Assembly (NCBI GenBank): GCA_022844125.1
Contig: JALHMI010000015.1
Location: 62,001 to 126,000, forward strand
Direction: 5' to 3'
Source of the DNA: Pirellulales bacterium
GTDB lineage: Bacteria > Planctomycetota > Planctomycetia > Pirellulales > PALSA-1355
Length of the DNA: 64,000 bases
Made by a program: the position numbers and the translations under genes. The notes under the pieces were generated by a model. That model searched no databases. It was not told the DNA's origin and was given only the letters and a program-made list of their open reading frames with translations. Positions 1 through 46,153 of the stretch are shown here, one piece after another (positions within the stretch are counted from its first letter, which is position 1; each line of letters opens with the position of its first letter).

Positions 1-3000
1 GCATCGCCAGCCAGTTGCATCTGCTTCTGGCAGAGAAAATACGGCAGCATCACGCGTTGTTCATAGATCTGCGCGAAGTCCGCAGGATTGAAGCGATCGA
101 ACTTCGTGTCATCGCGGAGCGCGGTGAGAAACAGATGCGTAAGGGGTTGTTGTTGCCAGAGCGTTTCCAACTCGGCGACTGCAGCTTCGGTCGAGGTCTC
201 GCGCAGTCGGATGACGGTCGCCCCGCTCGCCGTGATCCGGTTGGCCAGCGCATCAGCCAAGGCGTTGGTTCCTTGAATTGCGACTGCGCCCTTCCAGGTC
301 GGAAACTCGGCAGGCTGCTTTTCCCAAGGGGTGGGGACGATGCGAAGCACGAACCGCACGCTGTCGGGATCGACCGCGGCCGGATCCTGCAAATCGCGAG
401 AAGTTGGCGCTTCCGCTTGTATGAGTGGCGCGGACGGTGCGACGAGTTCTGCCGGATCGCCCGCAGGTGCGCTGGGCAGCAGTGCCCCGATGTGGACGCG
501 CTGGCGAATCGCTCCGCAGTGGATGAGCAGATCGCCGCGGGCGGCATCGACAACCGCCGACAGCTTCAAGGAGCCATTCCCGGGAACTTCGCCCAAAAGT
601 GCGAGTAACTCGCCGGCGTCTTGCGGTTGCCGACCACTGGCGAGGCGAGCGCGGAGCCAATTGAACCGCGTCAGCGAAGCTTCGGGCACAGCCCGCGATG
701 ACGCGCCCAGCACGCAGTGATTTGCGGCGATCACGAGGTCGGCCGCGGGTTGCTCGATGTAGTTGCGGCCGTCGTGTTCTGCCGCGGCAAGGCGTCCGGC
801 CTGCTGATCGCTGAGGCAGGCGGTCCAGCCGCGCGTCGCATGGGCTTGCTGCAAGCCGCGCGAAGCGTGTTCCAGCGAGCCGCTGCGCTGCAGGATGCCA
901 TCGACGCGGACGGCCATGCTGGAAGCGCTGCCGTTCGTGGTGGCCACGGTATCGACTAGTGTGCCGGTTGAAGCAGCCAGTCCATTGCCATTCAAGCCGA
1001 CCAGGCTGCCGATAATCCCGGTAAAGGTGACAGTAGCGCATGCCCAGCCGTGGTCGGGCTCGCGCACCAGGACGAGCGGCGTGAGCATCTCGGCCAGGGC
1101 AGGGGGCAGCGACAGTTCGCCGGACAGGCCATGCAGGACCTGGGTCTTGCCGCCCGAGGTGTTGACGAGCGCAACCTGGGCGGCACTGGCCGCAAAGTCA
1201 GGCAGCACGGCGAGATTCAGCGCGGCCAGGTTGCCGAGCGGCACTTCGACAGCGTCGGCCAGACCGCGCAGCTCTTCGAGCTGCGCCGGCGTGAAGTAAC
1301 GCTCGGGATTGGTGCGCGCCTCAGCCGGAATGGGCAGTTCACCCCAATCGCCGTCGGTCAGATCAGCGATTCGCCTCAGGAGGCGTCGAATTTCCGTTTT
1401 TTTTTCCGCGCCGTGCTGGAAACCCAGCTCATAGGCGCTGCCGCGAACGTGCAGGACGTCGACCTGGGCTGAGCCAGTGGCGGCGATGCCGGCCGCCGAC
1501 GTCTCGGTGGTCGGGGCGTTCGAGGAGGGGGTGGCCGCCGAAGTCGTTATCGGGGCGCCAGCCTTGGTCGGCGCTTTGGCCAGGAAGTTCACGATGTGCC
1601 GCAGCGTCGGGAAGTCGTCGAGCGTCAGGCCGTCGGTCGGCGTGACGTCGAAGTACTCCTGGAGCTCACCGAACATCTGGGCCTTTTTGATGCTGTCGAT
1701 GCCGAGGTCCGCCTCCAGGTCGGCGTCGAGCTCCACGACTTCGGGCGGATAGCCGGTTTGCTCGACGACAAAGTTCACTAGAAAGGCTTCGAGCTCGCCT
1801 GTATCGACGCCGGCCGTGGGCTGTGTGGCGGCTGCTTGGGCGATGGGCTCCGCTTGCGGAGTGGCTACGCTCGCCGTCGGTGCTGGCGCCGGAGCGGGTG
1901 CCGGTGCTTGGGTTGCGGGCAGAGCTTGTGCAGCCGGTTGCGCCGCACTGGCCGCGGTCGTGACCGGAGCGCCTGCTTTCGTCGGCGCTTTGGCCAGGAA
2001 GTTCACGATGTGCCGCAGCGTCGGGAAGTCATCGAGCGTCAGGCCGTCGGTCGGCGTGACGTCGAAATACTCCTGGAGCTCGCCGAACATCTGGGCTTTC
2101 TTGATGCTGTCGATGCCCAGATCGGCTTCCAGGTCCGCATCCAGCTCGACAACTTCCGGCGGATAGCCGGTTTGCTCGACCACGAAGTTCACCAGGAACT
2201 TCTCGAGCTCGGCCATGTCGACGGACGCCGCCGGTTGAGCTGGGGCGGGCGCGACTGCCACTTGCGGCTTGGGCGCACTGGCAACCGGAGCCGGAGCAGG
2301 TGCCGGAGCAGCGGCGATCGGCGCCGGGGCAACAGGCGCTGGTGCCGGCGCTGGTCTTGGCGCGGGGGCGATGGGCGCTGCGACGACCGGCGGAGCAACG
2401 GGAGCCGGAGGAGATGGGGGCTTCGGCGTTGCGGCCGTCTTCGTTGCGGCGGCACGCATCTTCTCGCGGCGGCGGGCCGTTGCATCGAAGTGGAAAATCT
2501 CTCCGTGTTTGCTGGGGGCCGCCACAGTTGCAACCGGTGCGACGGGCTGCTGACCGCGCGGACGATCGAGTGCCCCCGTGCATTCAAGCATTGCCTGGAC
2601 GCGGACGACTTGCTCGATGCCGGGCCGCGAAGGATTGTCGCAGGCGATGCCGGCCAGTTCCTGCGGAGGCAGGATCCGCCGATTGAGCCGGGTGAGTGCC
2701 TGCTGCGGGCCGACTTCAACAAACACGGTCGGGGCCTGTGCGGCGAGCTTGCGCACCAGGTCGGCATAGCGGACGGGTGTCGTCAGGTGGGCCACGAGGT
2801 TGCGGCCGATCTCGCTCGGCTCGCGCACGACGTCGTTGTTCGCCACGCTGTAGGTCGTGACCCGCGGCAGGGCGAACTTCTCTCCGGCGATCGCCCGGTG
2901 GAACATTTCGCCGGCCGGCCGCATGAGCGGCGTGTGGAATGCACTCGGCACCTGCAGCTTGCGCGTTTCGAACAGCGACTGTTGAAGCATCGCCTCGAGT

Positions 3001-6000
3001 TCGGCCAGCGCCGGCAGCGTTCCCCCGACCACGGTCTGATCCGGCGCGTTGTGATTCGCCACATACGCCGGGCCGCTGAGCCGCGGCGTCAGGCTCTCGA
3101 TCATCTCGGGCGTTGCGGTCGTGGCCAGCATGCCGGTCTGTCCACCGGGCTGCGCGTCGATCGATTCACAGCGGCGACGCGTGACGCGAATCGCCTGCTC
3201 AAGATTCCAGGCCCCGGCGGCAAAAAGTGCCGGGTATTCGCCATAGCTGTGACCGGCAACCAGATCGGGCTCGATGCCCCGCTCTCGCAGGGCGGCCAGC
3301 ATCAACACGTCGGCCAGCAGCATCGAGATCTGCGTGGTCCAGACATCTTTGCCCAGCGGCGAGGTTTCATCCCAGGCAAGCGTCGGCCAACTGGGAAAAC
3401 CGAGCCCGCGCATCGTGGCGTCAATTTCGGCCTGTTGGCGAGCTGCGGCCGGAACTTCAGCCACAAGCTGCTTGAGCATGCCCGAGTACTGGGAACCTTG
3501 TCCCGGAAACAGGAACGCGATGCGGGTATTTGGATTGGCTTCGCGATAGAAGATGCCCTGTTGTTCAAGCACGGTCTGCGAAGCCGGGTTGTCGAGTTGC
3601 TTGAGTGCGGTGGCGAGTCGGCTGGTCAACGTCGAGACGTTGTCCGCCACGATCGCCAGTCGGAAGCGGTCGCCGGCGGTGAACTTGCGCTGGCTTGCGG
3701 CAGTAAAGGCGTTGGGATCGCTTTGGGCCGCGGTCGCCCATGCGCGGAGTGCGGCTGGATCGGTAGCGCCGAAGCGACAGATTTGCCACGGCGAAGAAGC
3801 CGCGACCGATGGAGCGGAACTGGCGGCGATTGCCGGCGCTGCTTGAGGCTGCGGAAGCGCGACGACTGGAGCGGGAGCAACGGCCACGGCCGGCGCCGCA
3901 ACGGGAACCGGCGCTGCTTGCGGAGCGCTGGCCGCGGTCGTAACGGACGCTCCGGCTTTCGTCGGCGCCTTGGCCAGGAAGCTGACGATGTGCCGCAGCG
4001 TCGGGAAGTCATCGAGCGTCAAGCCGTCGGTCGGCGTGACGTCGAAGTACTCCTGGAGCTCGCCGAACATCTGAGCCTTCTTGATGCTGTCGATGCCAAG
4101 ATCGGCTTCCAGGTCGGCGTCGAGTTCGACGACTTCCGGCGGATAGCCGGTCTGCTCGACCACGAAGTTCACGAGGAACTTTTCGAGCTCGGCCATGTCG
4201 ACAGATGTCTGGGAGTGATTGGCGGGTTGAGCAGCGACAGGGACGGGAGCAGCTCCATTCTGATAGGCCGCTGCACCATTGAGTGCTGCTGCCGGTGCAG
4301 GAGCAGGCTCCGGATGCGGCGCACCGGCCGTGGTCGTAACGGGCGCTCCGGCTTTCGTCGGAGCCTTGGCCAGGAAGTTCACGATGTGCCGCAGCGTCGG
4401 GAAGTCGTCGAGCGTGAGGCCTTCCGTCGGCGTGACGTCGAAGTACTCCTGTAGTTCGCCGAACATCTGGGCCTTCTTGATGCTGTCGATGCCCAGATCG
4501 GCTTCGAGATCAGCATCGAGCTCGACAACCTCCGGCGGATAGCCGGTCTGCTCGACGACGAAGTTCACCAGGAAGCTTTCGAGCTCGGCCATATCCACAG
4601 ACGAACTGACCGGGGCAGCGGCTGCGACAGGTTGAGCTTGGGGAGCCGCGGCGGCTCCGGGACGTTTTACTTCCACGCGGCTGCCGTATTCGAGCACGGC
4701 GTGATAGGCCAGGCCGCGCGAGCACGTGCCCACCGCAGCGAGGCGACGACCGTCGGCCGTGGTGTAGTCAATCGCGGTCCGAGCAGTCGGCGCTGCGAGC
4801 AGACCATCCTGCTGCTTGATCGCGGTGGCAGGTGTTTGCATGCCGACCGGCGGAGGCAGTTCGCCGTGGCTGACTTCCAGGATCGCCTTGAGCATCGACA
4901 CCAGCGAGCTCGCACCCTGCGTGTTGCCGAGTTGGCCCAGCACCGAGCTGATCATCAGCGGATGCTCGCGTCCATCGCGACCGTGAATGTTGGCGACGGC
5001 CCGAATCTCTTCAGCAGTCGTGGCCGGATCGCTCAGGGCATCGAGTTCCATGACGGCAACATCCGACGGCTTCGCGTTCGGGCCGAATGAACGCTCCATC
5101 GCCAGCTCGAGTGCCTTGCCCCACGAGTTGTGATCGTGAGCAGCGCCGACTCCTCGGAGGATCGCGTGAATGCGGTCGCCGTCGCGCTGGGCATCGGCCA
5201 GCCGCTTGAGCAGCAACACCACGACACCTTCGCCCGGCACGCAGCCGGCGGCCCCGGCATCCAGCGGCGAGCGAGGTGAGCCCTGCGCCAAATCGCCACT
5301 CAGGGCGAGGCTCTCATACATCGGCCAGCCCATCCGACGCTGTCCGGCGGCGCAAATCATCATGTCGCAATCGCGCGCCAGCAGCATGTCGACGCTGATC
5401 GACAGCGCGGCGAGGCCTGACGACTGACCGGCGTCGATCGCGGCGGCGCCGCCCATCAGGTTCCAAGTCTTGCCGATGCGCGAGGCCAGCGAGCTGGTGC
5501 TGAAGCTGCCGGTCTCGTCGATGAGCGCCGGCCAGGCCTTGAGCATGGCTTCGCCATAGTCCTTGCCCGCTTGCTTGGCGCTGTCGACCGTGAAGCCGCG
5601 CTTCGTGAGCAGGGCTTCGATGTGCCGCTCGAGTTCCGGAATTCGCAGCCCGAGTTGCAACTGGAACGAAAAGTCGCCACCGAACTCGGTGCCAACCACA
5701 ACACCGACGTTTTCGCGATTGAAGGGCTTTGCGTCGTAGCCGGCGTCCTTCATCGCCTGATCGCTGGCTTCCAGCAGCATGAACTGCAAGGGATCGGCCT
5801 GCTGGACCTGCTTCGGCGGTACCTTGTGACGCTTCCAGTCGTATTCGAAACCGTGGATGAAGCCGCCCACCAGGCTGTTCGGGTCGGGCGCCGCGCCTTG
5901 AGCCGAGCGAATCGCCACGGCCGGGTTCCAGCGATCGGCCGGAATCGGTCCCTTGGGATCGACGCCGCCCGAAAGCAGATTCCAGAAGGCCGTCGGATTC

Positions 6001-7526
6001 TCGGCGCCAGGGAGTACGCAGCCCAGACCGATGACGGCGATGGCCTGCTCATCGGCAGTGAGCATGTCCTGCGGCGGGCCGGGCATTGCGGCAGCCAGCG
6101 CGCGGCTCGATTCGAGATACTCATCGACCGCCACGTGCATGTTCAATCCGCCAATGCCGAACGCATTGCAGCCCGCGCGGCGCGGCTTGCCATCGGCCCG
6201 CTTGGGCCAGGGCTGGGCGGCAGTTGGCACGTAGACCGGCGAGTTGGCCCAGTCGATGTTCGGATTGATTTCCTTGATGTTGATCGCCGGCGGCACGGTC
6301 TCATTGTTGATCGCGAGCACCGCCTTGATCACGCCCGCGATGCCGGCCGTTTCGAGCGTGTGACCGATGTTGGCCTTCACGCTGGTAATCGGAATCTTCT
6401 TGTCCGGTGGAAACGCCGCGCCGAGGATGCCTTTGAGCGTGTTGAGTTCGGTCGCGTCGCCCAGCTTGGTTGCCGTGGCGTGAGCTTCGACATAGTCGAG
6501 GTCGGCCACCTCGAGGCCATCGCGATAGGCCCGCTCCATCGCCTTGGTCTGACCTTCCTTGCGCGGAGCCCACAGGCTCTTGCCCTTGCCGTCGGACGAG
6601 ACGCCGAGCCCGCGTACCACGGCCAAGACCTTGTCGCCATCGTCGAGGGCGCGCTTGAGCGTTTTCATTACCACCGCGACGTAGCCTTCGCCGACGATCA
6701 GGCCATCCGCATCGGCATCGAACGGACGCGTGCCGGTCGCACTCATGGCCCGCGCGTTCGAGAACAGCACCAGCGAGTCGCTCTTGCAATCCGAGGCGCC
6801 GCCGACGATCGCCATGTCCACACGGCCCAGTTGCAACTGCCGGGCGCCGAGCAACATCGCTTGCAGCGACGATGCGCACGCCGAGTTGATCGCCACGTAC
6901 GGTCCGTTCAGCCCAAACGCCTTGTTGATCGCCCCGGCGACAAGGCTGGCCGAGACGTCGGGCGTTTCAACTGTCGGATGCGGCAGCGGTGCCCGGACGC
7001 GCTGGATGAGTTCGTCGATGACCGCCTGCTGTTCGTGCGGCGGAAGCTGCTGGAAGGCCGGTACCTGCCGCAGAAACTCGGCGGCCTCGGCCATACAGGT
7101 GGAGTAGGTGTGGTCGCCGGCCAGGGTAGTTCCCTGGGCGTGCCCGACGTAAACGCCGGTATTGCGCAGCGGAACGTTGAAGGGATCCATGCCGGCGTGC
7201 TTGAGGGCAGCGGCGGCGACGTCGCACATGATCAGATGCGCGGCATCCACGCTGGCGGCAAGCTTCGGGTCGATCGGCAGTTGGCTCAGGTCGACTGCCC
7301 GGCTGCTGAGGGTCGCGGCCAGTTTCGAGTAGGTCTTTCCGCGAACCCCGACCTCCGGATCGAAGTACATATCCTCGTCGAAACGGTCGGCCGGCATCTC
7401 GGCGACGGCATGCCCGCCACCGACCAGCATTTGCCAGTACTGCTCGAGGTTATCCGCGCCAGGCAGGCGACATGCCATGCCCACGATGGCCAGCGGAATT
7501 TGATGCGGAGAATAGCGGTCGGCCAT
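1..7526 (-). CDS. Large iterative type I PKS / PUFA-synthase-like multidomain synthase (partial, runs off left edge)
   Basis: Open from ATG at 7526 to base 1 without a stop: 2508 codons plus two bases. Domains in order: ketosynthase, residues about 10-460, with active-site Cys217 in NSACASS and both His motifs (EAHATAT and NIGHTLE); a second ketosynthase fold, about 495-910, with Gln701 in place of Cys (DAGQSSG) and no catalytic His; ACP1 (Ser1015) and ACP2 (Ser1147), each in LGIDSIKK; acyltransferase, about 1335-1630, with GHSYGEY (Ser1427) and a PSAFH motif suggesting malonyl use; ACP3 (Ser1807) and ACP4 (Ser1945); a C45/penicillin-acyltransferase-like domain, about 2020-2345; then what looks like the start of a ketoreductase region. 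Ala/Pro-rich linkers join the ACPs. The LGIDSIKK type of ACP and the malonyl-type AT resemble PfaA/HglE secondary-lipid synthases. The product is unknown. No convincing Shine-Dalgarno site precedes the ATG. Later domains lie outside the window. Confidence 0.9.
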   Translation of the reverse strand, partial: MADRYSPHQIPLAIVGMACRLPGADNLEQYWQMLVGGGHAVAEMPADRFDEDMYFDPEVGVRGKTYSKLAATLSSRAVDLSQLPIDPKLAASVDAAHLIMCDVAAAALKHAGMDPFNVPLRNTGVYVGHAQGTTLAGDHTYSTCMAEAAEFLRQVPAFQQLPPHEQQAVIDELIQRVRAPLPHPTVETPDVSASLVAGAINKAFGLNGPYVAINSACASSLQAMLLGARQLQLGRVDMAIVGGASDCKSDSLVLFSNARAMSATGTRPFDADADGLIVGEGYVAVVMKTLKRALDDGDKVLAVVRGLGVSSDGKGKSLWAPRKEGQTKAMERAYRDGLEVADLDYVEAHATATKLGDATELNTLKGILGAAFPPDKKIPITSVKANIGHTLETAGIAGVIKAVLAINNETVPPAINIKEINPNIDWANSPVYVPTAAQPWPKRADGKPRRAGCNAFGIGGLNMHVAVDEYLESSRALAAAMPGPPQDMLTADEQAIAVIGLGCVLPGAENPTAFWNLLSGGVDPKGPIPADRWNPAVAIRSAQGAAPDPNSLVGGFIHGFEYDWKRHKVPPKQVQQADPLQFMLLEASDQAMKDAGYDAKPFNRENVGVVVGTEFGGDFSFQLQLGLRIPELERHIEALLTKRGFTVDSAKQAGKDYGEAMLKAWPALIDETGSFSTSSLASRIGKTWNLMGGAAAIDAGQSSGLAALSISVDMLLARDCDMMICAAGQRRMGWPMYESLALSGDLAQGSPRSPLDAGAAGCVPGEGVVVLLLKRLADAQRDGDRIHAILRGVGAAHDHNSWGKALELAMERSFGPNAKPSDVAVMELDALSDPATTAEEIRAVANIHGRDGREHPLMISSVLGQLGNTQGASSLVSMLKAILEVSHGELPPPVGMQTPATAIKQQDGLLAAPTARTAIDYTTADGRRLAAVGTCSRGLAYHAVLEYGSRVEVKRPGAAAAPQAQPVAAAAPVSSSVDMAELESFLVNFVVEQTGYPPEVVELDADLEADLGIDSIKKAQMFGELQEYFDVTPTEGLTLDDFPTLRHIVNFLAKAPTKAGAPVTTTAGAPHPEPAPAPAAALNGAAAYQNGAAPVPVAAQPANHSQTSVDMAELEKFLVNFVVEQTGYPPEVVELDADLEADLGIDSIKKAQMFGELQEYFDVTPTDGLTLDDFPTLRHIVSFLAKAPTKAGASVTTAASAPQAAPVPVAAPAVAVAPAPVVALPQPQAAPAIAASSAPSVAASSPWQICRFGATDPAALRAWATAAQSDPNAFTAASQRKFTAGDRFRLAIVADNVSTLTSRLATALKQLDNPASQTVLEQQGIFYREANPNTRIAFLFPGQGSQYSGMLKQLVAEVPAAARQQAEIDATMRGLGFPSWPTLAWDETSPLGKDVWTTQISMLLADVLMLAALRERGIEPDLVAGHSYGEYPALFAAGAWNLEQAIRVTRRRCESIDAQPGGQTGMLATTATPEMIESLTPRLSGPAYVANHNAPDQTVVGGTLPALAELEAMLQQSLFETRKLQVPSAFHTPLMRPAGEMFHRAIAGEKFALPRVTTYSVANNDVVREPSEIGRNLVAHLTTPVRYADLVRKLAAQAPTVFVEVGPQQALTRLNRRILPPQELAGIACDNPSRPGIEQVVRVQAMLECTGALDRPRGQQPVAPVATVAAPSKHGEIFHFDATARRREKMRAAATKTAATPKPPSPPAPVAPPVVAAPIAPAPRPAPAPAPVAPAPIAAAPAPAPAPVASAPKPQVAVAPAPAQPAASVDMAELEKFLVNFVVEQTGYPPEVVELDADLEADLGIDSIKKAQMFGELQEYFDVTPTDGLTLDDFPTLRHIVNFLAKAPTKAGAPVTTAASAAQPAAQALPATQAPAPAPAPAPTASVATPQAEPIAQAAATQPTAGVDTGELEAFLVNFVVEQTGYPPEVVELDADLEADLGIDSIKKAQMFGELQEYFDVTPTDGLTLDDFPTLRHIVNFLAKAPTKAGAPITTSAATPSSNAPTTETSAAGIAATGSAQVDVLHVRGSAYELGFQHGAEKKTEIRRLLRRIADLTDGDWGELPIPAEARTNPERYFTPAQLEELRGLADAVEVPLGNLAALNLAVLPDFAASAAQVALVNTSGGKTQVLHGLSGELSLPPALAEMLTPLVLVREPDHGWACATVTFTGIIGSLVGLNGNGLAASTGTLVDTVATTNGSASSMAVRVDGILQRSGSLEHASRGLQQAHATRGWTACLSDQQAGRLAAAEHDGRNYIEQPAADLVIAANHCVLGASSRAVPEASLTRFNWLRARLASGRQPQDAGELLALLGEVPGNGSLKLSAVVDAARGDLLIHCGAIRQRVHIGALLPSAPAGDPAELVAPSAPLIQAEAPTSRDLQDPAAVDPDSVRFVLRIVPTPWEKQPAEFPTWKGAVAIQGTNALADALANRITASGATVIRLRETSTEAAVAELETLWQQQPLTHLFLTALRDDTKFDRFNPADFAQIYEQRVMLPYFLCQKQMQLAGD
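1561..1799 (-). repeat. ACP-encoding repeat copy 4 (ACP4)
   Basis: One of four in-frame, near-identical DNA segments of about 240 bp inside the synthase gene. It encodes ACP4, with phosphopantetheine Ser1945 at bases 1692-1694. The copies differ mainly at third codon positions, which points to recent duplication or gene conversion. Confidence 0.85.
1975..2219 (-). repeat. ACP-encoding repeat copy 3 (ACP3)
   Basis: In-frame repeat encoding ACP3, with Ser1807 at bases 2106-2108. It follows a long Ala/Pro linker that comes after the acyltransferase domain. Confidence 0.85.
3955..4201 (-). repeat. ACP-encoding repeat copy 2 (ACP2)
   Basis: In-frame repeat encoding ACP2, with Ser1147 at bases 4086-4088. 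It lies directly before the linker that leads into the acyltransferase domain. Confidence 0.85.
4351..4594 (-). repeat. ACP-encoding repeat copy 1 (ACP1)
   Basis: In-frame repeat encoding ACP1, with Ser1015 at bases 4482-4484. It follows the inactive ketosynthase-like domain. Confidence 0.85.
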
Positions 7527-7746: not shown

Positions 7747-9219
7747 TTAGGCCTTCAACGGTTGGGGTGTTCGGTCTTCCGCCGCACGGGTTGTGATTAC
7801 CTGCTGGAGCGCGGACTTCAATTCGCTAAGTCGCTGCGATGCGCCTTGAACCACCAGGCGTCCGGAGTTAATCGATTCGTCGATCGAAAGTTCACCACTG
7901 GCCAAGGAGCCGAAAGTCGCGGCGCTCAAGTGGAAACCGGCCGCAACGGGCGTCGGTAGCCCGGGCTCGGCGCTCGCGACGCGTCCGCCCGCGATGTGCA
8001 GTTGCCACTGTCCGCCGCCGGCGCCGGTGACTTGCAGGGCCACGGGCGTGGTGCTTCCGTTTGCCGTTAGATTAGCCAGCAGCGGCTGCAGGTGCGCGCC
8101 GACGTTGCAGGCAGCCGCGGGGCGCTCGTGCCGCGGGGCAATGAAGTTTCGCTCCACGGGATAGCGAGAAATGCTCATCAGAACGTCAGCCGTCATCTTC
8201 GGCGATGGCAGGTGTGGCAACGCGGCCCGGGTGTTCGTCAGATCGAACTTCGGATCGTCGCGCCAGTGCGACTGGTAGATCGACATGTACTCGTAGAACA
8301 AGGCTTCGAGGGTCTGCAACTCGGACTCCGAGATCGAAGTCGCCAGTTGCTTGGGATAGTGCTTTTGGATTGCTTCGGCCACAACACGCTGAATCTCGAG
8401 CACGGGCACCGGATCGGCCGAGGCCAGGTGGTAGGTCTTGCCGTGATGTTCGGGTCGCGTGACCAGCGTGACAATCGCCTCGCTGAGCCAGTCCACAGGC
8501 ACGAGGTTCTTGCCTTCGTCCCCCTTCAGCCCAAGCTTCGAGTAGAACCGGTCGTTCATCTGCTCGACAGGTACTCGTCCGGCCATGGTGTGAGCCAGTT
8601 GCAGCGGCAGGTAAAAGCCGTGGAAACTGGTCACGTACCCGCTTTTCGAATCGCCGACGACGCTGGCCGGGCGATAGAAGGTCCGCTGCTCAAGGAAGTC
8701 AGCCGAGCGGATCAACTTCTCGGCGGCGAGCTTGCTTTGTTCGTAGACATTGCCGAGCGTCTGGCCGACGTCGATGTCGCTTTCGAGGATCTGACCCTGT
8801 CGCAGACCGCAGATGTAAGCGGTCGAAACCTGGTGGAAGTGCCGAATGCCGGTCGTGCGGCAGAGCTCCAGCAGGTGTTTGGTCCCCTCGACGTTCGTGC
8901 GGAAGGGTTCGCCGCGCTTGTCCTCGCGGAAGGTCATGCTGGCGGCACAGCTCAGGATGCGATCGCAGTGCGAAGCGATCCAGGATCGCTGGCCGGCGTC
9001 GGGCACCACCTCGTCGAGGCAGAGGTCCCCTTCAATGACAACCGGACGCGGCAAGCAGCGGCCCGCCTGCTGCTCCCAGTAGCCCATGATCCCTTCGAGC
9101 GTGGCAGGACCTTTACCTGGACGGACCATGGCGGCGACGGGGACATCCGCGGCCAACAGGTCGCGCAACAGATGGCGACCCACAAGTCCGGTCGATCCTG
9201 TCAGCAAGATGTACGACAT
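7747..9219 (-). CDS. Thioester reductase (extended SDR) fused to an SCP2-like lipid-binding domain
   Basis: About 490 residues. The first ~365 form an NAD(P)-binding extended SDR of the thioester-reductase/male-sterility type: GSTGLVGRHLL at the N-terminus for the dinucleotide, a serine-tyrosine-lysine set with YEQSK, and substrate-domain motifs further on. The last ~110 residues read like an SCP2 sterol-carrier domain, with alternating hydrophobic strands and a G-L-V-V-Q-G-A turn near the end. Such reductases release ACP-bound acyl chains as aldehydes or alcohols, as in heterocyst glycolipid synthesis, so it probably unloads the neighbouring synthase. I chose the ATG at 9219 because the GSTGLVG motif follows at once and a CGAGGT ribosome-binding site lies just upstream; an open frame extends to 9255. 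A 220-base gap separates it from the synthase. Confidence 0.8.
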   Translation of the reverse strand: MSYILLTGSTGLVGRHLLRDLLAADVPVAAMVRPGKGPATLEGIMGYWEQQAGRCLPRPVVIEGDLCLDEVVPDAGQRSWIASHCDRILSCAASMTFREDKRGEPFRTNVEGTKHLLELCRTTGIRHFHQVSTAYICGLRQGQILESDIDVGQTLGNVYEQSKLAAEKLIRSADFLEQRTFYRPASVVGDSKSGYVTSFHGFYLPLQLAHTMAGRVPVEQMNDRFYSKLGLKGDEGKNLVPVDWLSEAIVTLVTRPEHHGKTYHLASADPVPVLEIQRVVAEAIQKHYPKQLATSISESELQTLEALFYEYMSIYQSHWRDDPKFDLTNTRAALPHLPSPKMTADVLMSISRYPVERNFIAPRHERPAAACNVGAHLQPLLANLTANGSTTPVALQVTGAGGGQWQLHIAGGRVASAEPGLPTPVAAGFHLSAATFGSLASGELSIDESINSGRLVVQGASQRLSELKSALQQVITTRAAEDRTPQPLKA

Positions 9220-9289
9220 AAGACGGCTGAACCTCGTTCGGCAAACGGCTAGCAATCAGTACACAAACGCCGCATGTCGACAGCCACCG

Positions 9290-9438: not shown

Positions 9439-10287
9439 TCAATTTCGCGCCGTCGTATCGACGGCCACGAACTCTTTTTTGGCATCTTTGGCCACCCGGC
9501 TGATCGCCACCCGGGGATCGTGATTCCACAGAACCAACCACCGCTCGTCGGCTGCGCGGGTCAGCAGTTCAGGCTTCCGGCGGCGGGTGTCCAGCGGATA
9601 GGTGTCGTAGGCCAGATGCCACATCCGCCGCAGGTGGACAGTCGAGGGGCAGATGTCCCCGAGGTATGCGGCCGTCTGCCCACCAGACTCGAAGTATAAG
9701 GCCATGTGGCCCCGGGTATGACCACCAGTAATCTGACACCGAAGGCCAGGGACGATCTCCTGGCCGTCCTCGACCACGTGCATCAGCCCCGCTTCGTACA
9801 GCGGTAGGATGTCCTCCATCGGGTAAGCCGTCTCAAGTTCGGGCGCGCGGCCTGTCGCGTCTTCCCATTCCAGCCGGCCGACGAAGTGTCTAGCGCGGCC
9901 GAAAATGGGTACGCGGCGCTGCTGGTCATCGAAGCGCGTCGCGCCACAGACGTGATCGAAGTGCAGGTGGCTGAAGACCACGGTGTCGATGTCCTCCGGT
10001 GCGACGCCCAACGCTGCGAGGCTGGCAATCAACGGCTCGCCTTCTTCCATCTGATAGAACCGTCGGTCGAGCTTGGCAAACTTGCCACCGTAGCCGGTAT
10101 CGATCAGGACGGTATGACGGCCGTCGCGGGCGAGCACGCAGTTGTTCGCGCACTGGATGCGATTGAGTTCATCCGGTGGGGCGACGTTCTTCCAGATCGT
10201 CCGCGGGACGACACCGAACATTACGCCGCCGTCGAGCCAGAACAGGCCGCCGTTGAGCGAATCGAGTTGCCAGTTCCCAAGGTGCAT
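9439..10287 (-). CDS. Metallo-beta-lactamase-fold hydrolase
   Basis: 282 residues, the usual length for a single-domain MBL-fold enzyme. The zinc-binding motif HLHFDH is at residues 107-112, followed by a GGHTRGH segment near residue 190, a GD-containing loop (YLGDI) and a C-terminal NHD segment, as expected for a dinuclear metal site. There is no signal peptide. It lies between the acyl-AMP ligase (55 bases upstream) and the thioester reductase (219 bases downstream) on the same strand. MBL-fold thioesterases are common helpers of iterative polyketide synthases, so hydrolysis of a thioester or lactone intermediate is a reasonable guess, but the substrate cannot be read from the sequence. Confidence 0.8.
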   Translation of the reverse strand: MHLGNWQLDSLNGGLFWLDGGVMFGVVPRTIWKNVAPPDELNRIQCANNCVLARDGRHTVLIDTGYGGKFAKLDRRFYQMEEGEPLIASLAALGVAPEDIDTVVFSHLHFDHVCGATRFDDQQRRVPIFGRARHFVGRLEWEDATGRAPELETAYPMEDILPLYEAGLMHVVEDGQEIVPGLRCQITGGHTRGHMALYFESGGQTAAYLGDICPSTVHLRRMWHLAYDTYPLDTRRRKPELLTRAADERWLVLWNHDPRVAISRVAKDAKKEFVAVDTTARN

Positions 10288-10342: not shown

Positions 10343-11806
10343 CTAAGGGAGTTGATCGCGAAGGATCTTGCCGGCCGGGGACCGGGGGAGCGTTTCGAGG
10401 GGCAGTATGCGCTCGGGTCGCTTGTAATACACGAGGTGCTTCTCGCAGTGTGCGCGGATGATTTGCACGTCGAGCGTGCCGTCGACGACGACTGCCGCCT
10501 TGATGAACTGGCCCCCGCTCTTGCGAGAACCGGCGTAGACTTTCACCTCGACCACGCCGGGAATGGCCGCGATGACTTCCTCGACTTCGGAGGGGATGAC
10601 CTTGAGCCCCTCGACGTTGATCACTTCTGCCTCGCGGCCAAGCAGGTGAATCTGGCCGAGTTCGTCGATTCGTGCCAGGTCGCCCGTTTCGAACCAGCCA
10701 CCCTCAAGCATCGAGGTATCCGGACCGTTGGCACCGAGGTAGCCAGCCATCATCGAACTGGAGCGAACGAACAGCCGGCCGACGTCGGGCGTGGCGCCAA
10801 CTTGATCAGGATGGGGCCGCACCTGGGCTTCGACTCCGTTCATCGGCGGGCCGACGCAGCTTCCGGCCACCTGCTGATCGCCAGCGGGGGCGACGGTGAT
10901 CCCACCGGTTTCGGTAGTTCCGTACAGTGGCCGCACGCGAATGCCGGTCTTGGCGGCGAAGCGCTCGGCGGTTCGTTCGCCAAGCGGCGAGCCGGCCGAA
11001 AGCACGGTCTTTACCGCCCCACGCAACTGCTCCGCACCGCCGAAGAGCAGCACGTCGAGCATCGCCGGTACTGCCGGCAGAATTGTCACTCGCTCTTCGG
11101 TCACACCCTGCAAGACCTTGCTAGCCGCAAACGCCCGCATTGAAACGATCGACGCCCCGCTGAGCAGCGACACCATCACGCACATGCCGTAGGCGTAGGC
11201 GTGACACATCGGCGCGATCGCCATGATCGTGTCGTCGGCCGTGACGCCAATGGTCTCAATGTAATGGCGAGCTTCTTCGGTGGCGGCGAAGCCGGGGCGA
11301 ACCGCGACCTTCGGCACGCCGGTCGTACCAGACGTCGGATGTAACGGAACCGCAGCGAGTTTGCCATATGCCTGGCTGAAACCGGGAAGCGAGAGGCGAA
11401 CCTTGGCCGCGCCCAGCTGCAGCCAGTCGCCCGCCGAAAGCGCCGCGATCGGTAGCTCTTCAGCCGCGAGATCGGCGAGCGGACACTCATCACTGAGGAT
11501 CAGGCTCGCTCCGAACTTGAGTGCCGTTCGTTTGAGCTCGGCGGCCGGCGTACGCGGATGCACCAAAAGCGGCGAGCCGCCGACGCTCAGCACCGACACC
11601 AGCGCCGTGACGAACTGAGGGCCGTTGCTGACCGAGATCACGACCCGCTCGGCCGGTTCCAGGCCCAGCGAAGTCAGACGCTCAGCAAGTTGACCGCGGG
11701 CAATGTGAAAGTCGTCGGCTTCGACGGTGCGCGCGGCATCCAGATCGACGAACCTTCCCCGATACCGGGCAGCGGCATCCAGAATCGGTTGCGGCGAAAG
11801 GTCCAT
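10343..11806 (-). CDS. AMP-dependent acyl/fatty-acid ligase (ANL superfamily)
   Basis: 487 residues with the adenylate-forming core motif TSGTTGVPK at residues 158-166, a YGTTETGG motif in the mid-region, an FETGDLARID segment typical of the A7/A8 hinge, and the C-terminal catalytic Lys480 in SPAGKI. It activates a carboxylate to an acyl-AMP and passes it to CoA or an ACP. The start ATG lies three bases after the aminotransferase stop, so the two are probably translated together. In this context it could load a starter acid on the synthase or activate an acid to be joined to an amino product. The exact substrate is not determinable. It is a little short, with a compact N-terminal domain compared with full-length FadD proteins. 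Confidence 0.85.
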   Translation of the reverse strand: MDLSPQPILDAAARYRGRFVDLDAARTVEADDFHIARGQLAERLTSLGLEPAERVVISVSNGPQFVTALVSVLSVGGSPLLVHPRTPAAELKRTALKFGASLILSDECPLADLAAEELPIAALSAGDWLQLGAAKVRLSLPGFSQAYGKLAAVPLHPTSGTTGVPKVAVRPGFAATEEARHYIETIGVTADDTIMAIAPMCHAYAYGMCVMVSLLSGASIVSMRAFAASKVLQGVTEERVTILPAVPAMLDVLLFGGAEQLRGAVKTVLSAGSPLGERTAERFAAKTGIRVRPLYGTTETGGITVAPAGDQQVAGSCVGPPMNGVEAQVRPHPDQVGATPDVGRLFVRSSSMMAGYLGANGPDTSMLEGGWFETGDLARIDELGQIHLLGREAEVINVEGLKVIPSEVEEVIAAIPGVVEVKVYAGSRKSGGQFIKAAVVVDGTLDVQIIRAHCEKHLVYYKRPERILPLETLPRSPAGKILRDQLP

Positions 11807-11809
11807 GCT

Positions 11810-13165
11810 CTAGGCCAACAGCACGGCGCGGGCCGCGTCTTCGATCCGCTCCAGCACCGTCGCAATGTCTTCGTGCGAGTGCGCGGTCGAGAGGAACATC
11901 GGCTCGAACTGGTTCGGGTGGAAGTACACGCCCGAGCGTTGAAGTTGATGCTGGAAGCGGATGAACTTCTCAAAGTCGCAGTTCTGACGCACTTCGCGGT
12001 AATTCAGCAGGGGGCCGACATCATCGTGCGTCAGGAACATCGAAAGCATCGGGCCGACGTATTGTACCTGATGCGGAACACCCAACCGAGTAAGAATCTC
12101 GTCGATTCCATCGCCCAACTGGGCAGCGATGGCGTCCAGGTGAGTGTAAATTGCCTCGCCGTGGCGATGCATTTCATCGAGCGCCGCGTCGGCAGCCGCC
12201 ATGACCATCGTGTTGCCCGAGTAGACGCCGCCGTGGAACAGCTTGCCTTCGACAATCGACTGCATGATCTCCTTGGTACTGCCCAATGCCGAGATCGGGA
12301 AGCCGCCGCCAAGCGCCTTGCTGAGGATCGTAATGTCGGCTTCCACGCCGAAACGCTGCTGGGCACCGCCGGCGGCGACTCGCATGCCGGTGATGACTTC
12401 GTCGAAGATCAGCAACGCCTCGTGGTCTTTGGTCATTGCCCGGACGTTGTCCAGGAAGTCGGGTTCCGGGGCAATGACGCCGCCGTTACCCATGACCGGT
12501 TCCATGATCACGGCGGCTACCTGACCCTGGTGATCCTTCAAGCACTGCTCGAGCGCCTCGGGCGAGTTCCAGCGGCAAACCAGCACGTCGCGCGGGGCGC
12601 CGTTCATCCCCATCGTGCCCGGAAGTGCGGGGCCATAGGGCCCTGCGGGCAATTGTTCGATCGGGGCGTGGTAGCGATGGAAGATGTTATCGCTGGAACC
12701 GTGGTAGTGACCTTCGAACGCGATGATGTATCTCTTGCCGGTGAATGCCCTCGCGAGCCGCAGCGCCGCAACGATGGCTTCGGTGCCAGTGCTGGAGAAA
12801 CGCAAGAGTTCGATGTGCGGGAACAGTCCCTTCACCTTTTCGGCGACGCGCACGGACACTTCCGCGGGAAAGCCGAGCTGCGTCCCGCTCTCGGTTATCT
12901 GGCGGACCACGGCATCAAGGATAGCCGGCGGACGATGTCCGAAGATCAGCGGCCCATAGGCCATGTTCAGATCGATGTACGACTGTCCGTCGATGTCCCA
13001 GACGCGTGAGCCTTCGCCGCGCGTGGCTACCAGCGGCAGATGATAGGGGAGCACACGCATGGTGCTGTTATCACCGCCGGCGATGCTGTGGCGAGCGCGA
13101 GCTAACAACCGCTCCGAGCCGGTAGAAACGTTCTCGTGCACTTTTCCGTTCGTGAGCTGCGTCAT
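11810..13165 (-). CDS. Class III PLP-dependent aminotransferase (glutamate-1-semialdehyde-aminomutase-like)
   Basis: 451 residues. Visible landmarks are the substrate/cofactor segment SSTGTEA near residue 125, Asp255 in IFDEVITG, and the PLP-binding Lys283 in ILSKALGGG. The fold is that of HemL-like enzymes, but the location argues against a haem role: it heads a run of lipid-synthase genes and is followed at three bases by an acyl-AMP ligase. GSA-type aminotransferases occur in polyketide loci, where they aminate beta-keto thioesters (as in mycosubtilin/iturin synthases) or aldehydes released by thioester reductases. A chain aldehyde from the reductase in this locus is therefore a plausible substrate; that is inference. 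A strong promoter lies about 120 bases upstream. Confidence 0.85.
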   Translation of the reverse strand: MTQLTNGKVHENVSTGSERLLARARHSIAGGDNSTMRVLPYHLPLVATRGEGSRVWDIDGQSYIDLNMAYGPLIFGHRPPAILDAVVRQITESGTQLGFPAEVSVRVAEKVKGLFPHIELLRFSSTGTEAIVAALRLARAFTGKRYIIAFEGHYHGSSDNIFHRYHAPIEQLPAGPYGPALPGTMGMNGAPRDVLVCRWNSPEALEQCLKDHQGQVAAVIMEPVMGNGGVIAPEPDFLDNVRAMTKDHEALLIFDEVITGMRVAAGGAQQRFGVEADITILSKALGGGFPISALGSTKEIMQSIVEGKLFHGGVYSGNTMVMAAADAALDEMHRHGEAIYTHLDAIAAQLGDGIDEILTRLGVPHQVQYVGPMLSMFLTHDDVGPLLNYREVRQNCDFEKFIRFQHQLQRSGVYFHPNQFEPMFLSTAHSHEDIATVLERIEDAARAVLLA

Positions 13166-16751: not shown

Positions 16752-16931
16752 ACGGTGGGCTTTCGGAGGCGGGACGCGGGCGAGCGTATTTCGGGGGAAA
16801 AAGCAGGGTAGTCAGGTTCTTGCGTGTAAATTTCCCAAACTGACCATCATACACTAAACTGAAGGCTCCGCGCGCGGCAAGTGATGACCCTCCAGGGCCG
16901 CGGCTTAACCCTCCGAGCGGAGCTTTTCTGC

Positions 16932-18749
16932 GTGAGATTCCAGGTTCACTTCGTTTTTTTGCTCCTCTCGTTGGTCTGCTGCCGCGCACGTGCCGTAGCG
17001 CAATCTCCGACCGACGTCGCCGAACATCTGCCGGCAACTGCAAGCCTGGTTTTGTACAGCGGCGACATGGGCGCCACTTGCGCTGAGTTCCAGGAGACGC
17101 GGCTGGGTGGCGTACTTACCGGCGACGCCTTTCGCCCGTTGATCGACCGCTTGCGGAAGGATCATCAGGGCGGACCGCTGAACCTGCAGCCGATCTTCGG
17201 CTTCGATTGGCGTGAGTTGCAAACCGTCCATCAAGGCGCGGCGCTGATTGTGTTTCCGCTTCAGGACGGAACTGCCGCCAGAGCCTGCTTATTCGCGGGC
17301 GAAGCATCAGAAGACCCGGCCGCGCCCCTGCCGGTCGCCACGGCCTATTTCAGCTCGCGGGGATTTGTGCGCTCTGAAGCGGGCCGCGGTGATATTCTCG
17401 TTACGACCTTCAATCCGCCGGCATCCCGCAAAAACGAGAGGTCGCGCGTGCTCTTCAGCGGCCCGGGCTTTTATGGCGTTGCTGACTCACCCGCAGCCGC
17501 TGATCTGCTGCTGGCCGTGAAGCCTCCCGATTCGCTGTCCGCGAGCGACCTCTGGCAACAGGTGACCAGGCAAACAGCGCCGCCCGCGCGACTCGGCGAC
17601 CTGAAGTTACTGCTGCGTCCGTTTGAGTTTTGGGAACAGTCGCGCCGCTCGAATCCGCCCGCGGAGAATCCGGAAGGAACCTATCCCGACGTACCGGACT
17701 CGTTCGCCTCGTCGAAGCAGGTGGGCTTTGATGGCATCCAGGCGGTGGTCGGTCACGTGGCTTTCCCCGCGTCTGCCGGCCGCGATTGGGAAATTTCGGC
17801 TCGCCTGGTCGTTAGCCAGCCTTATGAGAAAGCGATGCGACTCTTCGAGCTTCGGTCGGGAACTGTGCCCGAGATTCCCGAACTCATCGGGTCAGAGGTA
17901 ACCAGCGCTAGCTTCTGGCGATGGGATTTCCCAGTCGCCATGCAAGGGTTCGGCTCGATGTTCGACGAAGCGAACGAGCCAGGTCCGGACGGTGTGGGAC
18001 TTTTCGAGGACATGCTGGACGGCCTACGCGATGATCCCGAAGGCGTACGCGTCGACCTGCGGCGCGAAGTATTCGCCAACCTTGGTCCCGGGATCTGGAG
18101 CGTCACGGATAGGGCCGGTCCCAAGACCAAGGAGCAGCCCCACGGCGATCGTGCTCTTTACCGGACCACGGTTCGCGAGCAGGCGAAAGTCGGCGATGCA
18201 CTCAAGCGCTTCTATGCCGGCGACGATCGCGTCGCATACCAGCGATCGGGCGAGTTTGACTTGTGGACCGTGCCCGATGGTGCGTCGCTATTCGTCGAGG
18301 GTGAGAGCGAATCGGTAATCAGCGTGCGAGCGCTGGCGCTGGGTGAGGGAACGTTGCTCTTCAGCACCGATCCTGATCAATTGCGCGAAGCTCTGAATGG
18401 CACGGCAGGCAAGCCTCTCAAGGACGATCCGGCATGGCGGGGTCTGTGGGAGAGTTTTGGCGAAGGACAGGCCGGCCTGTGGGGTCTGGCGAGGCTGGAC
18501 GAAACAATGGCCCCCGAGTATGCCGCGGCGACACAAGCTGAGCTGGCAGAAGATGCGGGTGCCATGGCTGCGATGTGGCGAGTATTGCTGTTCGGAGCGC
18601 TTAACAAGCAGACCAAACCACCGGTCGATGTAGCGCCCGCATTCGACAAATTGCAGCCAGGTCTTTCGCGCACCGGCACACGAATCGTCCCGGTTGACGG
18701 CGGACTCGAAGTAACCATCACAGGACAGCGACCGGAGAATGCGCCTTGA
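16932..18749 (+). CDS. Secreted protein of unknown function
   Basis: About 605 residues from GTG 16932. I prefer this start to the GTG/ATG at 16881/16884 because GGAG lies nine bases upstream and it opens directly into a signal peptide: basic start, hydrophobic core FVFLLLSLVCC, cleavage near AVAQS. The mature protein has no membrane span and no motif I recognise. It is mixed alpha/beta in composition with many acidic residues. It is divergently oriented from the ABC exporter (180 bases apart) and coupled by overlapping stop/start to the next secreted protein, so the two probably act together in the periplasm or at the surface. Function unknown. Confidence 0.8.
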   Translation: MRFQVHFVFLLLSLVCCRARAVAQSPTDVAEHLPATASLVLYSGDMGATCAEFQETRLGGVLTGDAFRPLIDRLRKDHQGGPLNLQPIFGFDWRELQTVHQGAALIVFPLQDGTAARACLFAGEASEDPAAPLPVATAYFSSRGFVRSEAGRGDILVTTFNPPASRKNERSRVLFSGPGFYGVADSPAAADLLLAVKPPDSLSASDLWQQVTRQTAPPARLGDLKLLLRPFEFWEQSRRSNPPAENPEGTYPDVPDSFASSKQVGFDGIQAVVGHVAFPASAGRDWEISARLVVSQPYEKAMRLFELRSGTVPEIPELIGSEVTSASFWRWDFPVAMQGFGSMFDEANEPGPDGVGLFEDMLDGLRDDPEGVRVDLRREVFANLGPGIWSVTDRAGPKTKEQPHGDRALYRTTVREQAKVGDALKRFYAGDDRVAYQRSGEFDLWTVPDGASLFVEGESESVISVRALALGEGTLLFSTDPDQLREALNGTAGKPLKDDPAWRGLWESFGEGQAGLWGLARLDETMAPEYAAATQAELAEDAGAMAAMWRVLLFGALNKQTKPPVDVAPAFDKLQPGLSRTGTRIVPVDGGLEVTITGQRPENAP

Positions 18750-20869
18750 GAACCAGACGTTCGCTGCCCCGTATCGTGCCATTTGTGGCGGTTGCGATTA
18801 CCTGCCTGCTTACAAGCACGGCCCGCGCGCAACTCGACACGCCGGCTGCCAGCGAAGCACGCTCAGCGCTCCGCGCCGTGCAGCAGGCGTACCAGCACTA
18901 CGACACTTGGAACGTGTGGGCCGCGGAGCTCAACCTCCCGGACGTGCAGTACGAACTGTGGGCCGGAGAGCGGGGACGGGCCGAAACGCTGGAAGCGGCC
19001 GTGGCCCAGCTTCGCGCGGGCCGCATTCCGCAGTTTGCGGATGCACCGTTCGTTCGCCTGGCGAAAGCACTCGAAGCTCGGGCGGTTGAACTGCAGCCAC
19101 TGCCGTCCACCGAGTGGCTGAGCAGTTGTGAGTCAGCAGGGGCCGCCTTTGTGCCGGTTACGGCGGACCTGGTCGAATCCGCCCGTGCCACGAGCCGCGA
19201 CCGGCTCGCTGCATTCGCAAGACATTATCCGCCCATCCGTGACCCCAAAAACGCCTGGCATCAGTTTCTCTATTGGGACGAAGTCGAGTATCTGACTGCG
19301 CGGATGCCGGGGCCGACCCCCGCGCCGGCCGAGTTGGATCGCATCGAGATGCGCTGGTCGAACGTACCGACAGTCTGGCACGACGACTTACTCTTCGAGG
19401 CGTCGCTTGCGGTGCGACATTTTATTCGTCTCCTCCGGGCGGAGATGATTGGTGAAACCGCGCCGCAACGAACAGCCGCCTGGAGCGAACTGGCCCAGTT
19501 ATTGACGGCCAGGTCGATGGACCCAAACCTGGGAGCGCCGATTGCCGCGGCGGTCCGGCGGCGCGAAAGCCTGGGACAGGCCTCTCCGCTCACCGCCACG
19601 ATCCGTCGCGAGCTCTCGCGGCCGAACCTGCTGCTGCAAATTGACGCCAGGTGGTTGTCAAATGAAACTCGGCAGCCGGTGGACGACAGCTATGACGTGA
19701 ACGGCGTTTTCGCCGGCACACGCAGTGTCGGACGCGGTCGGATGACGGGTGAAATGACGACCAGGGTGTTACCCTCATCGGCAGTGGGGCGTTTGGAACT
19801 GCTGTTCCGAGGAACCTCGAACGCGCGAGCCAGCGGGTCGCAAGACCGCGTGAGCGTAGTCAGCCGCGCGACGACCCAGGTGGCCGCCACCAAACCCTTC
19901 CGGCTGGACGAACTCGGTTTGACGCCCGAGCGGGCGCTTGCCGGAGCGACCACGTCAATCGTCTACGAAAGCATCGACTCGCCGGGCCTGCCCCGCCGGC
20001 GCAGCCAGGCCGTGAGCGAGACGCATGCGCGGCGGCCCCAAGCCGAGCGCGAGAGCGCGGCATACGCGCGCCGATCGATTCTCGAGCAGATTAACGAGCA
20101 AGCTGCAACCATGGCGACCGATTTTAATCGGGCTTATCACCGCGATGTGCGCGACCCACGCATCACGGCCGGACGCCCCGCCCCGCGGATTCGCATCCTC
20201 GCCGACGAGCGGCTCGTGGCCTGGGAGGCGACTCTGGAAGGGCCGCAATCGTTCGCCGCTTCCAGCCAGCCGGAAGCCTACGACTGCGGCAACCCGGTCG
20301 TCATGTCCGTCGCGCCGTCGGTGCTCGAGGAGCAAGCGACCATCAGCCTTGGCGGGCGTGAGTTAACAGGTGCCGAACTGGAGCAGCAGCTGTGGCAGAA
20401 GCCCGCGGAAGCACAGCCGGTGTCGCAGCGCAAGCGCGGCGACGACGAGTTTCGGGTGACGTTTGCCCCACGTCCTTGCGAAGTGCAGTTTGTCGAAGGG
20501 GCCGTGCGTGTGCGGTTGTTTATCGAGAAGTTCGACTCGGAGGACGTAAAGTATCCGGCGATGACGGTGGACGTGGCCTATCGGCCGGAGCCGCGTGACG
20601 GCCGGCTGGTCCTCACTCGCGAGGGCAAGGTAAAAGTCATGCCGCTGGCGACGGCCGAAGGCGCGCCGAAGCTGAGCGGCCGGCAGCAGACGCTGCGCCT
20701 GGCGGTCGAGCGAAAGCTGTCGAAGGTACTGTCCAGCGAGATCGCCGCAGAGCCCGTGAAGCTGCCCATCGCAAAAGATGACGAGCGTCCGCTGCGGGTG
20801 GAAAACGTGCGATTGGCGGGGGAATGGCTGCAGATGGGGCTGGGAACCGAGCCGACACCGGCCTCTTGA
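18746..20869 (+). CDS. Secreted protein of unknown function, coupled to the gene before
   Basis: 707 residues starting at TTG 18746, which overlaps the previous stop in TTGA; GGAG at 18733 fits as ribosome site. The N-terminus is a clear signal peptide (RTRRSLPRIVPF, hydrophobic core, cleavage near ARAQL). The first ~250 residues are helical and rich in Trp/Tyr/Leu; the rest is predicted strand-rich, with Arg-rich stretches around residues 420-440. I recognise no family. The tight overlap with the upstream gene suggests a two-protein unit. Genes of this kind are common in planctomycetes but remain uncharacterised as far as I know. Confidence 0.8.
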   Translation: MRTRRSLPRIVPFVAVAITCLLTSTARAQLDTPAASEARSALRAVQQAYQHYDTWNVWAAELNLPDVQYELWAGERGRAETLEAAVAQLRAGRIPQFADAPFVRLAKALEARAVELQPLPSTEWLSSCESAGAAFVPVTADLVESARATSRDRLAAFARHYPPIRDPKNAWHQFLYWDEVEYLTARMPGPTPAPAELDRIEMRWSNVPTVWHDDLLFEASLAVRHFIRLLRAEMIGETAPQRTAAWSELAQLLTARSMDPNLGAPIAAAVRRRESLGQASPLTATIRRELSRPNLLLQIDARWLSNETRQPVDDSYDVNGVFAGTRSVGRGRMTGEMTTRVLPSSAVGRLELLFRGTSNARASGSQDRVSVVSRATTQVAATKPFRLDELGLTPERALAGATTSIVYESIDSPGLPRRRSQAVSETHARRPQAERESAAYARRSILEQINEQAATMATDFNRAYHRDVRDPRITAGRPAPRIRILADERLVAWEATLEGPQSFAASSQPEAYDCGNPVVMSVAPSVLEEQATISLGGRELTGAELEQQLWQKPAEAQPVSQRKRGDDEFRVTFAPRPCEVQFVEGAVRVRLFIEKFDSEDVKYPAMTVDVAYRPEPRDGRLVLTREGKVKVMPLATAEGAPKLSGRQQTLRLAVERKLSKVLSSEIAAEPVKLPIAKDDERPLRVENVRLAGEWLQMGLGTEPTPAS

Positions 20870-26520: not shown

Positions 26521-26540
26521 CCACTTTGTCCGAGGCCTGA

Positions 26541-40469: not shown

Positions 40470-40553
40470 GACGAAAATCAGCATGCGCCGCGAAGTAAGC
40501 TTTTCGAATTCGTGCCGTCCAGACTTTCGATGGATCACTTTCACGATTAAAGG

Positions 40554-42740
<2,187 letters not shown>

Positions 42741-42745
42741 CTCGG

Positions 42746-46120: not shown

Positions 46121-46153
46121 GGGCAGTGTCAAATAGGGCGCGGGTCGTATCGG

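Follow-up and report, generated by a model that had tools for sequence, protein, structure and literature searches.

A complete C45 Ntn-hydrolase-fold domain inside a planctomycete lipid megasynthase

The 64,000-nucleotide stretch of Pirellulales DNA analysed here (the window) encodes a PUFA-synthase-like megasynthase in which residues from about 2021 to 2357 form a complete C45 domain with the Ntn-hydrolase fold. The best explanation for this arrangement, which is considered probable though well short of certain, is that a C45 domain was captured between the row of ACPs and the ketoreductases (KRs), that in intact relatives it serves as a predicted in-line acyl-release or acyl-transfer domain, and that the copy in the window has become a constrained pseudoenzyme in a synthase whose chain would be released by a reductase. 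Within this explanation, fold, homology, residue loss, conservation and gene context were computed, and what is said below of self-cleavage, acyl transfer, a docking role and the type of product is conditional.

How PUFA-like and secondary lipid synthases release their chains is poorly understood. A C45 domain fused to the ACP row that one planctomycete clade apparently keeps intact and another has inactivated amounts to a natural experiment on how a megasynthase acquires, uses and then loses a domain for release or transfer. Should the copies that retain the nucleophilic Cys be functional, an Ntn hydrolase would join the domains known inside polyketide and lipid synthases, and the megasynthase carrying it would split itself. 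No description of a polyketide synthase containing a C45, penicillin-acylase or Ntn domain, or of a planctomycete synthase possessing one, was found in the open-licence literature, which accords with the statement in a preliminary description of this DNA that no iterative synthase with such a domain was known to have been described. A release domain that cuts at Gly-Cys was likewise not found described for polyketide or PUFA synthases in that literature.

The C45 domain and its host megasynthase

The megasynthase gene starts at position 7526 on the minus strand and continues past the left edge of the window, which holds residues 1-2508 (1..7526) of a full-length protein of 3,761 amino acids (G000:C15:58241-69526, equivalent to L003:4241-15526:-, on contig 15 of the window's own genome, G000). 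It is a PfaA-type synthase, scoring 1024 bits against NCBIfam TIGR02813 (PfaA; cut-off 1010) and possessing KS, AT, tandem ACPs, KR and DH. Pfam and NCBIfam models give the order KS-CLF-ACP2-AT-ACP2-[C45]-KR-KR-DH. On the minus strand of the window, the KS domain (6102..7502) has its active-site Cys in NSACASS at residue 214 and is followed by a second KS or chain-length-factor-like domain (4647..6059) in which the active Cys is replaced (DAGQSSG at residue 698). ACP1 and ACP2 (3957..4604; LGIDSIKK at residues 1011 and 1143) precede the acyltransferase domain (2670..3524; GHSYGEY at residue 1425), after which come ACP3 and ACP4 (1563..2228; LGIDSIKK at residues 1803 and 1941), the C45/AAT-like domain (456..1466) and the start of the first structural and catalytic ketoreductase unit (1..359). 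Outside the window, past its left edge, follow two KR units and then a dehydratase of the PKS type. The four ACPs (window 1563-4604) have almost the same sequence, which points to either a recent duplication or gene conversion.

The preliminary description had placed an AAT-type domain between the fourth ACP and the ketoreductase region, and the domain layout agrees with this. The motifs that it quoted are located where it put them, all on the minus strand: VRGSAYELGFQHG begins at residue 2027 (window 1448), TFTGIIGSLVGLNGNGLA at residue 2167 (window 1028) and AANHCV at residue 2267 (window 728). The segment matches the C45 proenzyme model NF040521 with an E-value of 6.6e-24 over profile positions 1-279 of 313, at 84.8 bits against a cut-off of 85, or at 85.2 bits when the segment ends are shifted slightly, and the isolated domain scores 24.5 bits against the Pfam AAT model (threshold 23.2). 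All of the 20 aligned members, the window domain and its relatives, match NF040521. With the single sequence, a search of the PDB gave weak matches only (2x1c, E 0.009); the decisive search was that with the 20-member profile, which retrieved isopenicillin N acyltransferase (2x1c) at E 5e-16, followed by acid ceramidase and NAAA. A search of plasmids with the C45 segment gave no match.

Structure prediction gave the same result. The AlphaFold (AF2) model of the domain (pLDDT 88.5, pTM 0.89) has the Ntn alpha-beta-beta-alpha fold together with the N-terminal helical part typical of AAT. Foldseek placed isopenicillin N acyltransferase first (E 6e-16), and the two structures align over 315 residues with a Z-score of 30.3 and an rmsd of 3.5. 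The C45 assignment made in the preliminary description thus holds for both sequence and structure. Since the host protein is PfaA-like, the segment could conceivably be a familiar PUFA-synthase domain (AT, DH or ER) mistaken for C45, but every search with it, by sequence and by structure alike, put C45 and related Ntn hydrolases on top and none matched a known PUFA-synthase domain; fold and profiles refute this reading, which is left with virtually no probability.

Active-site residues in the window copy and its relatives

Self-processing and formation of the acyl-enzyme in Ntn hydrolases both need the nucleophile, as is well established. In the window copy the nucleophile position, Cys in active relatives, is occupied by Ala2115 (1182..1184, minus strand) according to sequence and structural alignments, with residue 95 of the model falling on the first beta-chain residue of NAAA (Cys126), acid ceramidase (Cys143) and penicillin V acylase (Cys1). 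The preliminary description correctly noted that Cys is missing here, but it located the site one or two residues too early, at Ala2113 and Ser2114. Its candidate nucleophile, Ser2114, stands one residue before the nucleophile position and aligns with the cleavage-site Gly that precedes Cys in active relatives, and the Gly-Cys processing site is thus Ser2114-Ala2115 in the window copy. The catalytic Asp after the nucleophile strand, part of NED in the Cys-bearing (Cys-type) relatives and of NWD in isopenicillin N acyltransferase, is replaced by Glu2137 (1116..1118, minus strand). Two other residues are retained: Asn2179 of the GLN/GIN motif (990..992, minus strand), which by family analogy would form the oxyanion side, and the catalytic-type Asn2269 of the Asn-His motif ANH (720..722, minus strand). 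With Ala2115 in place of the nucleophile and Glu2137 in place of Asp, the window copy should neither cleave itself nor carry out covalent acyl catalysis. This bears out the earlier idea of a non-processing module and lends no support to the accompanying one of active transfer to an amine, the catalytic residues having been lost. The window copy is probably a pseudoenzyme that is maintained under constraint as a structural or lipid-binding part.

The domain occurs at the equivalent place in 32 Planctomycetota synthases, the search for such an order in other planctomycetes having been proposed in the preliminary description. Sixteen of 97 related genomes, the window's included, carry it in a long synthase frame, and more copies came from 392 genomes of the phylum and from a contig scan. 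The scan used the Cys-type alignment and one peptide pattern, by which records outside the phylum could be missed; the titles of its records name Planctomycetaceae, Planctomyces, Pirellula, Gimesia, Planctomicrobium and other Planctomycetota, together with a single unclassified 'bacterium' MAG. That MAG contig underlies L086 and seems to be identical to one in G309, a genome placed in the window's class. The usual order in the family is KS-CLF-AT-ACPs-C45-KR-DH, with the ACPs in a separate protein for some synthases.

The nucleophile position varies widely among the 32 in-synthase copies (Cys in 13, Ser in 7, Gly in 6, Met in 4, Val in 1 and Ala in 1, that of the window), and the full set of Gly-Cys, Asn-Glu-Asp and Asn-His is kept in 13 of them. 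Cys is present in all 28 of the free-standing planctomycete C45 proteins compared. Gly-Cys, Asn-x-Asp and Asn-His are also found in four discrete copies: L084, L089 and L090 each encode a separate ACP-C45 protein of 501-541 amino acids, and L094 encodes a related discrete C45 of 539 residues. In both G247 (L083 and L084) and the MAG NAT128 (L102 and L090), the C45 domain of the synthase lacks Cys and a discrete ACP-C45 protein has it. The freed ACP-C45 protein provides a small construct for direct testing. The Cys-type domain of L087 (synthase residues about 1978-2334) was modelled with a pLDDT of 90.4 and aligns to isopenicillin N acyltransferase with a Z-score of 36.3; its Cys101 falls on the first residue of the mature beta chain in penicillin and cephalosporin acylases, on Cys126 of NAAA and on Cys143 of ASAH1. 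Cys-type copies are probably self-cleaving where intact.

It might be argued that the window domain is still catalytic, with another nucleophile such as Ser2114 or a bound water molecule serving for transfer or hydrolysis of the chain. Ser is the nucleophile in other Ntn hydrolases. The fold of the window copy is complete with Asn2179 and Asn2269 in place. Seven relatives, namely the two nearest to the window copy (L032 being the nearest) and five others, have Ser at the true nucleophile position, and use of Ser is conceivable for them. The window residue at that position is nevertheless Ala2115, Ser2114 corresponds to the cleavage-site Gly, the catalytic Asp is Glu in the window and absent from the Ser-bearing relatives as well, and the constraint on window-type copies is weaker than that on a Cys-type pair (see below). 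Catalysis of this kind is accordingly regarded as improbable.

Descent, constraint and chain release

In a tree of C45 sequences, all but one of the in-synthase copies are separated from the 28 free-standing C45 enzymes with an SH-aLRT value of 99, the exception being a long-branch in-synthase fragment. The discrete ACP-C45 proteins nest within the in-synthase group, which the window pair joins at an SH-aLRT value of only 35. Both the separation and the nesting of the discrete proteins agree with one capture, after which at least two lineages lost the nucleophile. Judging from these sequences, the C45 domain was probably captured by a planctomycete PUFA-synthase-like megasynthase once and long ago.

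Decay of the domain can be followed in sister synthases. One, in G061, has no C45 domain, and another, in G090, retains a 68-residue remnant. Four more (L105, L107, L108 and L109) have a very diverged C45 copy between the last ACP and the KR, recognized by HHalign with a probability of 93.5 and an E-value of 2e-7. A G-x-C-D motif lies near the nucleophile position in three of these four copies.

Selection on the domain was estimated from pairs of synthases. For the Cys-type pair L081/L082, omega of C45 is 0.038 as compared with 0.037-0.042 for KS and KR. For the pair L083/L102, in which Gly replaces Cys, it is 0.066, a constraint equal to that on KS, which suggests a function independent of Cys and counts against the preferred explanation, where no such function is named. 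Window-type copies have omega values of 0.11-0.23, indicating purifying selection close to that on the structural KR subdomain and weaker than that on most catalytic domains of the same pairs. The window and L032 domains are 62 percent identical without gaps over 333 residues, with an omega of 0.23, and the linkers of the two proteins are 58 percent identical with 30 gaps.

These values bear on two further readings. The first is neutral decay, in which the domain would be a useless remnant on its way to being lost, as the repeated loss of the nucleophile, the G090 remnant and the absence from G061 might indicate. The gap-free alignment of the window domain with that of L032 at such an omega, set against the gapped linkers, and a complete fold modelled at high confidence oppose it, and it is considered unlikely to apply to the window copy. 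The second assigns the domain an acyl-binding or gating role: a pseudo-active-site pocket would hold the growing chain non-covalently, setting chain length or shielding reactive intermediates, and loss of Cys would have been adaptive. The full fold of window-type copies agrees with such a role, as do the Gly-type copies, which keep Asn-Glu-Asp and Asn-His and are constrained like KS. In several relatives, though, the domain is shortened, eroded or gone and hence is not essential for building the chain. A role of this sort is a minority possibility, if a somewhat better one than neutral decay.

In the preferred explanation, by which the window copy is a constrained pseudoenzyme descended from an active domain, a PUFA-synthase-like megasynthase of planctomycetes would first have gained a C45 domain between its ACP row and ketoreductases. 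In the intact relatives the Gly-Cys bond would break autocatalytically, exposing an N-terminal Cys and leaving the megasynthase as two associated chains; this Cys would accept the acyl chain from the neighbouring ACP and then hand it to water or to an amine. A putative role of the ancestral Cys-bearing domain in transferring or releasing the finished chain is plausible. In the window lineage, loss of the nucleophile and the catalytic Asp would have abolished both chain cutting and the acyl-enzyme, and purifying selection would preserve the fold and the two conserved Asn residues, the domain most likely acting as a structural spacer or offering a surface on which the ACP or the acyl group docks. 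The more specific proposal that an in-line Ntn-hydrolase domain cuts its own megasynthase at Gly-Cys and unloads the ACP-bound lipid as an acid or amide, the window copy having been converted into a non-cleaving and possibly acyl-binding part, is given slightly less than an even chance.

The genes upstream of the window synthase, all on the minus strand and conserved beside it in relatives, offer another route of release. They encode a thioester reductase (NAD_binding_4) fused to an SCP2 domain (7747..9255; Pfam/NCBIfam), a metallo-beta-lactamase-fold hydrolase (9439..10287), an AMP-dependent acyl ligase (10343..11806) and a class III aminotransferase resembling glutamate-1-semialdehyde aminomutase (11810..13165). 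A phosphopantetheinyl transferase and an SDR are encoded downstream, and genes of the cluster recur in relatives. The finished chain is probably released by the adjacent thioester reductase and most likely receives an amino group from the class III aminotransferase. The product may reasonably be guessed to be an amino-lipid, because the cluster resembles those for fabclavine and zeamine in combining a PUFA-like synthase with a reductase and an aminotransferase. G003 has the thioester reductase-SCP2 gene twice, and one in-frame TAA stop occurs in the additional copy (G003:C213:4898-6373).

Wherever the relevant flank of a degenerate copy could be seen, the reductase lay next to that copy. It also adjoins four Cys-type synthases (L080, L092, L097 and L101) and is present elsewhere in the genomes in which a GH3-family gene accompanies the synthase, both of which weaken the simple idea that the thioester reductase replaced C45. 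Nor is an intact C45 acting in trans supported for the window's genome, where no close C45 of the Cys type turned up elsewhere and the sole second C45 match is distant and weak (31.7 bits).

GH3 enzymes, best known as plant hormone-amido synthetases, use free acids as substrates. A GH3-family amide synthetase adjoins the Cys-type synthases of the Planctomycetaceae clade (L079/L086, L081, L082, L087, L091 and L093), with plus-strand genes at L081:15292-17010, L087:15936-17612 and L091:16064-17875. Use of a free acid by the neighbouring GH3 enzyme would suit hydrolytic release by the predicted-active C45. In G247, where the C45 domain of the synthase itself (L083) has Gly at the Cys position, only a few kb, occupied by argB-, argD- and argF-like genes, separate the gene for the discrete Cys-type ACP-C45 protein from one for a GH3 amide synthetase (L084:6330-7832:- and L084:1-1224:-).

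Elsewhere in the window are two tandem AcrB-type RND transporter genes (23080-30008), each scoring more than 1,070 bits against the Pfam model, an alpha-amylase-family cluster (37551-48049) with one member fused to an APH-type kinase domain (trehalose synthase-maltokinase-like), and two large open reading frames (16881-20869) of 622 and 707 amino acids for which there was no Pfam match at 1e-5.

Comparison with known systems

The isopenicillin N acyltransferase (acyl-CoA:6-APA acyltransferase, or AAT) of Penicillium chrysogenum (2x1c/2x1d), a C45 enzyme, has its fold in common with the window domain over 315 of 340 residues (Z 30.3), and the order of motifs is equal. Its Asn-Trp-Asp aligns with Asn-Glu-Asp of the relatives and its Thr-Asn-His with Ala-Asn-His. 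AAT puts the side chain onto penicillin, and thioesters are established acyl donors for it. The window domain differs in being embedded in a megasynthase, in being only 17 percent identical and in lacking the nucleophilic Cys and the catalytic Asp, so that AAT-like processing is not expected of it. Acid ceramidase (ASAH1) and NAAA (C89) likewise have the fold of the window domain, including the N-terminal alpha part, with Z-scores of 29.2 and 28.4, respectively. Both are self-cleaving lipid amidases. Unlike the window domain, with which they are 13-15 percent identical, they are free lysosomal enzymes that hydrolyse lipid amides.

On the side of the synthase, the PUFA synthases (PfaA/PfaC) and secondary lipid synthases (PMC3098273) have KS, CLF, AT, tandem ACPs, KR and DH in common with the megasynthase of the window, which differs from PUFA synthases in having KS and CLF fused in one chain and C45 between the ACPs and the KR. 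No penicillin-type domain is mentioned in that survey (PMC3098273). The zeamine and fabclavine polyamine synthases are gammaproteobacterial, and the portions of the reports consulted here (PMC9113149, PMC13291983) show no C45 domain in them. In the same portions these systems are described as bringing together PUFA-like synthase, thioester reductase, aminotransferase and 3-oxoacyl-ACP reductase, a combination also present in the window's cluster.
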